Positions 57,165 through 59,974 of a stretch of 64,000 nt of DNA are shown here, in pieces. This stretch comes from Williamsia maris (lineage in GTDB: Bacteria; Actinomycetota; Actinomycetes; Mycobacteriales; Mycobacteriaceae). Both the position numbers and the translations under genes were made by a program. The first letter of the stretch is position 1; the number at the start of each line of letters is the position of its first letter. The stretch covers positions 372,001 through 436,000 of the forward strand of contig NZ_JAMTCJ010000002.1 in the NCBI RefSeq assembly GCF_024171815.1. The letters run 5' to 3'. The notes under the pieces are model-generated. The model was given only the letters and a program-made list of their open reading frames with translations, ran no database searches and had not been told where the DNA came from.

Positions 57165-59375
57165 TCAGCCCTTGGCCATGTCGACGAAGCGGCTCAGGTG
57201 CAGCTGGTGCGCGACGGTGATCGTCGCCGTGGGGCCGTTACGGTGCTTGCCCAGGATGATGTCGGCCTCGCCGGCGCGCGGATCGTCGCGCTCGAACGCG
57301 TCGGGCCGATGCAGCAGGATGACCATGTCCGCGTCCTGCTCCAGCGAGCCGGATTCGCGGAGGTCCGACACCATGGGGCGCTTGTCGGTGCGCTGTTCGG
57401 GACCACGGTTCAGCTGACTGATCGCGACGACGGGAACTTCGAGTTCCTTGGCCAGCAGCTTGATGCTCCGGGAGAACTCCGAGACCTCCTGCTGACGGGA
57501 CTCGACCTTCTTGCCCGAGCTCATCAGCTGCATGTAGTCGATGACCACGAGCTTGAGATCGTTGCGCTGCTTGAGCCTTCGCGCCTTGGCTCGGATCTCC
57601 ATCATCGTGAGGTTGGGTGAGTCGTCGATGAACAGGGGCGCCTCGGAGATCTCGCCCATCCGGCGTGCCAGCCGCGTCCAGTCGTCGTCGGTCATCCGAC
57701 CCGACCTCATGTCGGCGAGCTTGATCTTGGCCTCGGCCGAGAGCAGTCGCATGACGATGTCGGTCCGGCCCATCTCCAGGGAGAAGAAGGCGCTGGTCAT
57801 GTGGTGGGTGATGGAGCAGCTGCGCACGAAGTCCATGGCAAGGGTCGAGTTGTGCGTCGGGACCATGGATTCACCGGCGAGGTACATCTGCCGCGGGTTG
57901 TCCACCTGGACGCAGCGGACCGGGACACTGTCCACCGGACGGATCGACACGATGCATCGCATTCCGCTCTGACGGCGAAGTTCTTTGTGGCGAACTGCCT
58001 TCCGGTGCACCGTGAAGACATCGTCGTCGGCGTCGACGCGCAACCACCCGGTGGCGGCGCGACGGAAGCTGTACCCGAGTCCGGCCACGAGGTCACCGAT
58101 CACGGTGCTCATGTGTTGGGTGGCCGCGGGCACCGTGATCCAGCCGTCGTCGTCGACGATGCCGCGGGCGTCGAGCAACCCGGCCAGCAACGCGCGCCGT
58201 TGGGCGACGGATCCGCGGAGGTACTCGTACGGCACCCGACCGCCGAGATCCGACATCAACGCCATGACGTCGACCGGCCCCTCTGCGTCGATCCGCATGC
58301 CGATCTCGTGATCGTCGAAAGCCATGCCCGCCAAAGCCGCAACGGTGTACGGGCCGTAACCGAAACGTCGGCGCGGGAGGTCGAGGGGCTGTGCGTTGCG
58401 GACGGCGACGGCACCGACCTGGCCGACGAGGGCGCCGGTGGTCTGCACCGTGCTCACCCCGTCGGACTCGGTGACCCACTGGTGCTCCTCGTCGGCGACC
58501 AGCACCGATCCGTCGGAGAACTCCACCTCGTAGCAGGGGCGGTCGGTGAGCACGTCGGTGGTGGCGACGACGCGGGTCGGTCGGCCCTCCGCGTCGATCA
58601 GACGATCGCCGACCTTGACCTCGCCCATCGTGGTCCACCCGTGCGGGGTGGGCAGCGGGGTGTCGAGCGCAAGTGCCTTGCCGACACCGGGACGCGCGGC
58701 GACGATGATCATCTGACCGGGGTGCAGACCGTTGGTGACGGAGTCGAGGTCCACGAATCCCGTTGGCACACCGAGCGAGATCCCGCCGCGCGACGCGATG
58801 GAGTCGATCTCGTCCATGGTCGGCTGCAGCAGTTCCTCGAGCGGGATGTAGTCCTCGGCGGTGCGCCGTTCGGTGACCTCGTACACCTCGGCCTGGGCCC
58901 GGTCGACCACCTCGGCGACGTCCTGGCCGTCGGCGCCGGCGTATCCGTATTGCACGATCCGGGTGCCTGCCTCGACGAGACGGCGCAGCGTCGCCTTCTC
59001 GGCGACGATCTCGGCGTAGTAGCCGGCGTTGGCCGCGGTGGGCACCGTCGCGATCAGCGTGTGCAGATACGGGGCGCCACCGACGCGGCGGAGTTCGCCG
59101 GACCGGTCGAGCTCCGCGGACACCGTGACGGCGTCCGCGGGCTCTCCCTTGCCGTACAGCTCCAGCACCGCGTCGTACACGGCCTGGTGGGCAGGACGGT
59201 AGAAGTCACCGGGGCGCAGCACCTCGAGCACGTCGGCGATGGCGTCCTTGGACAACAGCATCCCGCCCAGCACCGACTGCTCGGCGGCGAGGTCCTGTGG
59301 GGGTTGACGGCCGAACTCCTCCGCTGGAGGCGGCTCATCGCGCGGCGAATGGCCGCGCTCGTCCACTACTGCCAC
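57165..59375 (-). CDS. dnaB: replicative DNA helicase DnaB with in-frame intein
   Basis: A 736-residue precursor of the hexameric replication-fork helicase. N-terminal domain about 20-120 (QDLAAEQSVLGGMLLSKDAI), linker, then the RecA-like domain. Walker A is split: GVGK ends at Lys233, an intein occupies 234-509, and Ser510 (STLAMDF) resumes the motif. Walker B-type DYMQL, FSLEMGR, ISQLNRGPEQRTDKRPMVSD and SGSLEQDADMV follow. Removing the intein leaves 460 residues, normal for DnaB, and only the spliced protein has an intact ATP loop. The GTG at 59375 with GAGAGGG is preferred; the frame is open 50 codons upstream. It ends in a hairpin. Confidence 0.93.
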   Translation of the reverse strand: MAVVDERGHSPRDEPPPAEEFGRQPPQDLAAEQSVLGGMLLSKDAIADVLEVLRPGDFYRPAHQAVYDAVLELYGKGEPADAVTVSAELDRSGELRRVGGAPYLHTLIATVPTAANAGYYAEIVAEKATLRRLVEAGTRIVQYGYAGADGQDVAEVVDRAQAEVYEVTERRTAEDYIPLEELLQPTMDEIDSIASRGGISLGVPTGFVDLDSVTNGLHPGQMIIVAARPGVGKALALDTPLPTPHGWTTMGEVKVGDRLIDAEGRPTRVVATTDVLTDRPCYEVEFSDGSVLVADEEHQWVTESDGVSTVQTTGALVGQVGAVAVRNAQPLDLPRRRFGYGPYTVAALAGMAFDDHEIGMRIDAEGPVDVMALMSDLGGRVPYEYLRGSVAQRRALLAGLLDARGIVDDDGWITVPAATQHMSTVIGDLVAGLGYSFRRAATGWLRVDADDDVFTVHRKAVRHKELRRQSGMRCIVSIRPVDSVPVRCVQVDNPRQMYLAGESMVPTHNSTLAMDFVRSCSITHHMTSAFFSLEMGRTDIVMRLLSAEAKIKLADMRSGRMTDDDWTRLARRMGEISEAPLFIDDSPNLTMMEIRAKARRLKQRNDLKLVVIDYMQLMSSGKKVESRQQEVSEFSRSIKLLAKELEVPVVAISQLNRGPEQRTDKRPMVSDLRESGSLEQDADMVILLHRPDAFERDDPRAGEADIILGKHRNGPTATITVAHQLHLSRFVDMAKG
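57849..58676 (-). other. DnaB intein, class 3 (WCT) type with degenerate endonuclease
   Basis: Codons for 276 residues inserted in the dnaB Walker A motif. It starts with Ala (ALALDTPLPT), not Cys or Ser, and ends VPTHN before the +1 Ser. The class 3 triplet is visible: Trp67 in block B (ADEEHQWV), Cys255 in block F (VPVRCVQVD) and Thr274 in block G (VPTHN). In such inteins the block F Cys makes the first thioester. A LAGLIDADG-like motif (LLAGLLDARG, 163-172) has Arg where the catalytic Asp is expected, and only one poor second motif (LAGMAFDDHE) is visible, so the homing nuclease is probably inactive. Confidence 0.9.
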
Positions 59376-59974
59376 CCTGCACCCTCTCCACGTCGACCCT
59401 GCCTGGCATGCGTCGAGATCCGCACCCGCGACAACCGCTGGTGTTCGCGACCACGTCGTCGCGTCGAACCGATCACGCCCGCTCGTGTTTTCTACTCCCG
59501 GGGTCCGACAGAGCGGACCCGGCACGAGGCACGGTCACGAGGTTAGGTCCCGTTGTGATCCGCACCAAACCGACCTGTGGACCAAGTTGTTAGGTTCCTG
59601 TGGAGCAATCCACCAATCGTGTTGACCGACTGTTGGCGCTTTGGGGACAACCTGATCCCCGTATCGCGTTCGCGCTGGTCACTGGCATCCGCGGCCACGC
59701 ACAGGGTGTGCATCGAATTGCCTACGGCGTGTCGTGGGACTGCGTAACCCGGGCGTGTTCGAATTTTGCAACAAATGCTGTCGGACGATCAGATGAAGGC
59801 CGACACAATGCGGGGTTACACCCAGCTGACGTGGACAACGGACATCGAGCCATCCGGCGAAGGAGTACGTCCGTACCTTTACCAGCGTAGCGGTCGGGCG
59901 TCGACGGTCTGCGACGACACGCACCGCGAACGGTCCGACATGCCCGATCGTGCATCCGAAATCGTCTCGCGCGT
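59376..59974. other. 599-base stretch without a recognisable gene
   Basis: The region between the dnaB start and the next plus-strand gene is less GC-rich than its surroundings around 59570-59620 and 59755-59800. Reading frames here are short or antisense shadows without protein-like composition. It should hold the dnaB promoter on the minus strand and that of the plus-strand gene. I see no tRNA-like or strong hairpin structure. Confidence 0.5.

Follow-up and report, generated by a model that had tools for sequence, protein, structure and literature searches.

Why does an intein whose homing endonuclease (HEN) looks dead still carry the nuclease domain? The question is raised by dnaB, the replicative helicase gene, in a stretch of 64,000 nucleotides from Williamsia maris (the window; all positions are its coordinates, and residues are numbered within the intein with Ala1 first). 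The gene is interrupted at site b by a 276-residue intein, whose LAGLIDADG remnant was found to be under stronger constraint than the splicing (HINT) domain in a clade of Gordonia and Williamsia. On balance we favour the explanation that the nuclease fragment was turned into a structural component of the intein (HEN-HINT mutualism) and is probably needed for DnaB maturation.

The constraint on the remnant was analysed in 59 Gordonia and 8 Williamsia genomes together with two genera of one genome each, which gave 69 intein sequences (the clade). The ratio of nonsynonymous to silent substitution (dN/dS) was calculated by the NG86 method for 862 of the 2346 clade pairs, chosen by an extein silent divergence (pS) of 0.08-0.45. 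The remnant showed a dN/dS of 0.133 (interval 0.097-0.174), while HINT-N had 0.231, HINT-C 0.181 and HINT together 0.212; the values for the linker and the exteins were 0.413 and 0.104. In 4923 of 5000 codon bootstraps the remnant had a lower value than HINT. Codon maximum likelihood (ML) using 28 diverse taxa of the 69 gave an omega of 0.034 for the remnant, 0.059 for HINT-N, 0.052 for HINT-C, 0.026 for the C-extein and 0.019 for the N-extein, and a neutral remnant (omega 1, kappa fixed) was worse by 1221 log units. The relaxation relative to HINT that marks a decaying HEN was therefore absent by both methods. The domain is under selection without nuclease activity, as mutualism implies, the inactivity being judged from the missing acids.

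The same comparison was made for control sets at the same site (genera are given by label). For the dead inteins of genus g27 (17 loci) the remnant had 0.290 against 0.175 for HINT and was the lower of the two in merely 87 of 5000 bootstraps; the ML values were 0.083 for the remnant against 0.036 and 0.031 for HINT. The dead inteins of g23 (9 loci) gave 0.256 against 0.153. Both sets resemble the W. maris intein in having a shortened, acid-free nuclease at the identical site and a length of 252-277 amino acids (aa), but they carry Gly or Ala at the second motif and their remnant is less constrained than HINT. Pooled intact nucleases with both catalytic Asp (DD; 44 loci) showed 0.163 for the HEN against 0.117 for HINT, and the single intact genera g6 and g22 showed 0.139 against 0.083 and 0.135 against 0.098, respectively. 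Among the three dead sets tested, the remnant is more constrained than HINT in the Gordonia/Williamsia clade alone. The ratio of remnant to extein dN/dS was 1.3 for the clade, the lowest of the four groups, compared to 1.6 for the pooled intact nucleases and above 5 for the other two dead sets.

The residues under constraint were then located. Of the remnant residues, 19 do not vary among the 69 sequences, yet each occurs in fewer than 30% of 32 outside sequences, the assignments near gaps being alignment-dependent; Y107, G108, V112, L115, A116, M118, A119, R171 and W211 belong to this set. Arg171 is encoded by CGC in 42 sequences, CGG in 13, CGT in 12, and AGG and CGA in one each, so it is the amino acid that is kept and not the DNA sequence. 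No Arg was found at this position in the 99 parsed loci outside the clade. The first-motif helix, with 12 of its 13 residues invariant, is the best-conserved segment of the intein. The entropy of residues 120-148 was 0.37 in the clade against 1.08 in intact nucleases and 0.68 in g27, and that of residues 187-201 was 0.58 against 0.91 in intact nucleases. Strands 202-219, the kind by which LAGLIDADG enzymes contact DNA, are the least conserved portion of the remnant (0.87) and looser than in intact nucleases (0.74). The shift of constraint to the helices, with a tight part at 120-148 and loose strands, suggests that the remnant packs against or contacts the splicing domain and not DNA.

The state of the nuclease was judged from both motifs. 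The first LAGLIDADG helix reads GPYTVAALAGMA in W. maris and PPYTLGAWLGDG in relatives of 404-418 residues. In the ungapped reading the position of the first catalytic Asp is taken by Met118, while MAFFT sets a gap there; under either alignment both acids are lost, the second being replaced by Arg171 in LLAGLLDARG. The earlier note, which had called the LAGLIDADG nuclease apparently dead on account of this Arg, is thereby supported, and the loss of the first-motif acid is added to it. The region between the two motifs is largely missing, a cysteine-rich insert included, and the second half is retained with DAR where the full-length relatives have DTD; the intein is 141 residues shorter than its 417-residue relatives. 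Among these, the Nocardia inteins of loci L066 and L062 (417 and 414 aa) share its site and class 3 residues (identity 54% and 53%; 51% for L074), but full-length relatives hold both catalytic Asp and the cysteine-rich insert between the halves, and they coexist with empty alleles in several genera. Locus L064 was left out of the alignment with them. In the 404-417-residue group (L066:3001-4251, L062:3001-4242) the insert reads CVVCG...CGRSCGG...CxxCGG...CQSC or similar and is likely zinc-binding.

An AlphaFold2 model of the W. maris intein, built from an alignment of 46 locus-derived sequences, had a mean predicted local distance difference test score (pLDDT) of 93.7 with every residue at 70 or above. 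The remnant contains helices 109-116, 123-132, 137-144, 150-154, 157-171, 187-199 and 224-233 in this model, plus short strands. A Foldseek search returned class 3 mini-inteins first, followed by whole HEN-bearing inteins, namely PI-SceI (TMq 0.73), TliVMA and PhoVMA. The insert is thus not a mini-intein devoid of an endonuclease domain, and its 129-residue remnant is predicted to be a folded fragment of a LAGLIDADG domain. The model of a 417-residue Nocardia comparator, of low confidence (pLDDT 67.3) and used solely for the secondary structure of the HEN part, places strands 171-174 and 182-185 within the region missing from the W. maris intein.

It might be argued that the nuclease is still active or binds DNA through an unusual site and is selected for homing or another DNA task, as the remnant retains the strands of its second half as well as a charged C-terminal helix (HKELRR). 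This is very improbable. None of the 69 clade sequences has an acid at either catalytic position, and both Asp are critical in VMA nucleases (PMC1508164); going by the missing acids the nuclease looks dead. The first-half strands were not seen in the W. maris model, the strands that remain are the loosest part of the remnant, and no empty target was found among the 67 Gordonia and Williamsia genomes.

The distribution of the intein was surveyed in the family. An intein match at an expect value (E) of 1e-5 was obtained in 176 of the 301 family genomes drawn. DnaB is interrupted in every one of the 59 Gordonia and 8 Williamsia genomes, as revealed by a C-extein match in open reading frames (ORFs) of at least 737 aa, and the search for empty site-b alleles that the earlier note had proposed found none in these 67. 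Among the 125 genomes that lacked an intein match, the DnaB ORF measures 457-600 aa in 117, which are apparently empty at both known sites, and 895-933 aa in 6, which are broken only at the other site; the remaining 2, incomplete genomes (64% and 75% complete), have no DnaB match. The P-loop was uninterrupted in all 20 match-free genomes in which it was read directly; the remaining 103 were judged by ORF length. Outside the clade, 102 of 137 matching genomes were fetched and 99 loci were classified (L180, L292 and L295 had no parsed intein): 49 with both acids, including four placed there after their second motif was read as DTD, 10 with one, 34 with none and 6 mini-inteins. The mini-inteins, of 135-156 aa, lie in genera g13, g22, g23 and g29 (L284, L283, L294, L278, L288 and L291) and are possibly independent HEN losses.

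The homing-cycle view expects a dead HEN to decay (PMC3229294). In a pair of Saccharomycete VMA inteins with inactive nucleases, one extreme case, dS/dN was 0.67 for the nuclease against 4.41 for the splicing domain (PMC1508164); these are fixed-site inteins with a dead nuclease like those of the clade, but the order of the two domains is reversed in the clade. The earlier note had suggested that nothing but the lack of clean loss maintains the intein: a dead nuclease would persist because its precise removal from the Walker A loop is rare. The missing empty alleles in Gordonia and Williamsia, as well as the interruption of DnaB in 18 of 18 genomes of g27, fit rare loss of the whole intein. 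They explain why the intein persists but not why the remnant does; an intein can shrink to a mini-intein without being lost precisely, as happened in 6 of the 99 loci. Passive retention predicts drift or such shrinkage, and neither was seen: the inteins measure 276 aa in 64 sequences and 277 aa in 5, none of the 69 lacks a remnant codon (5 gained one), Arg171 is invariant and the remnant has a lower dN/dS than HINT. The suggestion is therefore not borne out, and we consider it improbable.

The identity of the insert was examined by alignment, as no intein or LAGLIDADG family of Pfam or NCBIfam was found above cut-off for it (best Hom_end, E 0.084). The top PDB sequence matches were class 3 DnaB inteins (6rix, E 4e-41; 6riy, 2e-40; 6bs8, 3e-39), which cover blocks A, B, F and G at both intein ends and skip the middle. 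The earlier note is upheld on these points: its coordinates enclose 276 residues between Lys and Ser of the split Walker A loop, A1, W67, C255 and T274 were read from the sequence as it had named them, and its block assignments match the sequences of the class 3 structures. A nucleophile (Cys, Ser or Thr) at position 1 is lacking, Ala1 being present in all 69 clade sequences, as are W67, C255 and T274 (the pattern there allowed T, S, C or H at the last). A1, C48, H65, W67 and C255 were found in all 186 distinct site-b inteins, of which 68 are from the clade; in this set the extraction pattern itself demanded the terminal THN, so the count for T274-N276 is not independent there. Judged by sequence, the insert is a class 3 DnaB site-b intein of the DnaBi1 allele group.

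Its solved relatives, M. smegmatis DnaBi1 (6bs8) and M. chimaera DnaB1 (6rix, 6riy), share with it an ALALDTPLPTP-like start, the MVPTHN end, the Trp-Cys-Thr (WCT) triplet, His65 and Cys48, but they are mini-inteins of 139-146 aa without an endonuclease domain. The M. smegmatis intein sits at site b in the identical P-loop position, and its class 3 route runs via block F Cys118 and Ser+1 (PMC6195587). The active site of the M. chimaera intein consists of Cys124, His65 and Thr143 with Trp67 (PMC7664689), and the W. maris residues agree with this set. By analogy, the splicing chemistry is likely to be shared.

Oxidation of the M. smegmatis intein forms a Cys48-Cys118 disulfide that blocks splicing (PMC6195587). 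The W. maris intein has both equivalents, Cys48 and Cys255, and a similar redox response is possible. Cys48 is termed non-conserved in PMC6195587, yet it is invariant in the 186 site-b inteins, which suggests that the redox pair could be shared across the allele group. The remnant could accordingly be a regulatory or partner-binding domain that times DnaB maturation, through the Cys48/Cys255 pair or through pairing of precursors, in place of supporting splicing. The two invariant cysteines would suit such a role, as would the fixation of the intein in 67 of 67 Gordonia and Williamsia genomes and the stronger conservation of helices 120-148 and 187-201 than in intact nucleases. The redox pair is present in mini-inteins without a remnant, which makes the remnant unnecessary for it, and the remnant lacks a conserved extra cysteine (Cys241 occurs in only 3 of 69). 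We regard this role as doubtful.

The descent of the intein was analysed using 34 of the 69 clade sequences for the intein tree. The clade inteins are monophyletic with full local support and adjoin dead inteins of genus g11. In the extein tree the clade genomes do not form an exclusive group, since they enclose g11 and one g13 genome. Within the clade, intein distances correlate with extein distances (Mantel r 0.72, p 0.001). Of 43 well-supported intein splits, 9 are contradicted by extein splits that are likewise well supported. Most simply, the nuclease would have died once, before the Gordonia/Williamsia split, and the intein would have been inherited largely vertically, with a measure of exchange or noise. 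The conflicting splits and the placement of g11 and g13 could also be taken to mean that the constraint is merely apparent and due to recent spread or gene conversion, or to an overlapping gene, for which a long open frame on the opposite strand (57801-59546, +) offers a candidate. The silent divergence of the remnant (pS 0.49) is no less than that of the exteins (0.40-0.42), which indicates neither recent spread nor hidden overlapping constraint; along with the five codons of Arg171, the distance correlation and the monophyly of the clade, it makes this highly improbable, the least likely of the explanations considered. Constraint by an overlapping gene was rejected on the silent sites. The opposite frame, of 581 aa across dnaB and the intein, is most likely a by-product of high G+C because the silent sites of dnaB are unconstrained.

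The favoured explanation, in which the remnant supports splicing, can be laid out as follows. Going by the solved relatives, Cys255 would attack the Lys-Ala1 junction after translation, the N-extein would pass to Ser+1, Asn276 would then cyclise and DnaB would be rejoined with its Walker A loop intact. The homing nuclease would have lost both catalytic acids and the first-half strands, most simply before the Gordonia/Williamsia split, whereas the two LAGLIDADG helices and the second half would have been rebuilt with Met118, Arg171 and the 17 other clade-fixed residues. The rebuilt remnant would be a structural domain on which the splicing fold now depends, and support of splicing would be the role for which it is selected. 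HEN-HINT mutualism has been described for the TliVMA and TFIIB inteins, and the splicing of TliVMA is largely diminished without its HEN (PMC8966425). The Pyrococcus horikoshii VMA intein (PhoVMA, 7qst) has lost both LAGLIDADG acids and kept the fold, like that of W. maris (PMC8966425). These archaeal cases were judged on single proteins and start with a Cys1 nucleophile (PMC8966425), whereas the W. maris intein starts with Ala1.

Several observations weigh against this explanation. PhoVMA splices without its degenerate HEN (PMC8966425), and the site-b mini-inteins indicate that HINT can in principle do without the remnant. Conservation of the first-motif helix is equally high in intact nucleases and in dead g27, and this segment therefore does not set the clade apart. 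Locus L060 (Halopolyspora algeriensis, outside the family; a 316-aa site-b intein) also has a DAR second motif and lacks the first-motif acid; Arg at the second catalytic position is hence not unique to the clade, although the change is probably independent, a possible parallel Asp-to-Arg replacement. Intact g23 (6 loci, wide intervals) gave 0.086 for the HEN and 0.104 for HINT, and its ratio to the exteins is likewise 1.3, so intact nucleases, too, can have a HEN under stronger constraint than HINT. HINT evolves faster in the clade than in the control groups, from which part of the reversed ratio stems, and the NG86 values are close to silent saturation.

The fate of dead homing nucleases in inteins, as trash or as useful parts, is unsettled. 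HEN-HINT mutualism has been argued from a few archaeal proteins, and the available passages of PMC8966425 contain no cross-species selection test. A natural series of mini, intact and several dead forms is present here at one site across one bacterial family, with one dead lineage constrained beyond its own splicing domain in 67 genomes, which makes the question directly testable; Met118 and Arg171 are the residues singled out by the clade comparison. No published description of the Gordonia/Williamsia DnaB intein case was found in the literature, subscription papers lying mostly outside the search; the kind of intein is already known, and the new aspect is a dead remnant under stronger constraint than HINT. 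Should the favoured explanation hold, it would account for the retention of a selfish element in an essential gene once mobility has been lost. A bolder view, for which we hold little expectation, is that domestication turned the dead nuclease into an essential control domain specific to the clade, without which DnaB of Gordonia and Williamsia would be inactive and which would set the time or place of splicing. In that case, production of the replication helicase in this lineage would include a once selfish element as a fixed and selected part.

Table 1. Features of the interrupted dnaB gene in the window.
Feature	Position	Strand	Remarks
dnaB, replicative helicase split by intein	57165..59525	-	ORF 786 aa; PF00772, PF03796 (Pfam), TIGR00665
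Putative class 3 intein, 276 aa, DnaB site b	57849..58676	-	GVGK / STLA junction of Walker A; homologues 6rix, 6riy, 6bs8
HINT-N, residues 1-72, block A	58461..58676	-	Sequence reading and alignment
Cys48 of HINT-N	58533-58535	-	
His65, block B	58482-58484	-	
Trp67, block B	58476-58478	-	
Variable linker, residues 73-105	58362..58460	-	dN/dS 0.41, weakest constraint
LAGLIDADG remnant, apparently dead, residues 106-234 (129 residues)	57975..58361	-	Alignment, model, dN/dS
First LAGLIDADG helix PYTVAALAG, residues 109-117	58326..58352	-	PYTLGAWLGDG in full-length relatives; helix 109-116 in model
Met118, first catalytic position (ungapped reading)	58323-58325	-	
Second LAGLIDADG motif LLAGLLDARG, residues 163-172	58161..58190	-	Helix 157-171 in model
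Arg171, second catalytic position	58164-58166	-	
HINT-C, residues 240-276	57849..57959	-	Sequence reading and alignment
Cys255, block F	57912-57914	-	
Thr274, block G	57855-57857	-	Followed by His275, Asn276
Ser+1, first C-extein residue	57846..57848	-	Walker A serine; role from PMC6195587

The dnaB ORF as listed begins with GTG, and the real start is possibly further downstream. The G+C of the insert (0.686) and of the exteins (0.673) is alike, so the composition bears no sign of recent arrival. A search of the whole genome with W. maris DnaB gave a single match at E 0.001; a second dnaB copy that would make splicing dispensable was therefore rejected, and the working helicase most likely needs splicing. 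Chance or misassembly was also rejected, as homologues occupy the identical site in 69 genomes. The closest named record was a Williamsia metagenome assembly (L032, 97%), records of the W. maris genome itself possibly being left out.

Copies of the W. maris intein in mobile elements were sought and rejected. All of the 344 matching phage records were below 60% identity, with a best identity of 33% among the 20 matches listed; three IMG/VR loci had 27-33%, and among 16 plasmid records the best full-length match was 38%. The phage relatives (e.g. Nebkiss, Gaia and CN1A), at 29-33% identity over the full length, lie in genes annotated as terminase or exonuclease.

The C-extein match ends at residue 171-174 in 12 of the 67 Gordonia and Williamsia genomes (e.g. 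L129 and L130), which indicates that the other known DnaB site is occupied there as well; in contrast to the fixed site-b intein, this second insertion is patchy. Genus g11 had 3 dead, 2 intact and 4 apparently empty site-b alleles among the 9 genomes sampled (G010, G059, G076, G092, G131, G040, G106, G119 and G142) and offers a natural setting for the homing cycle.

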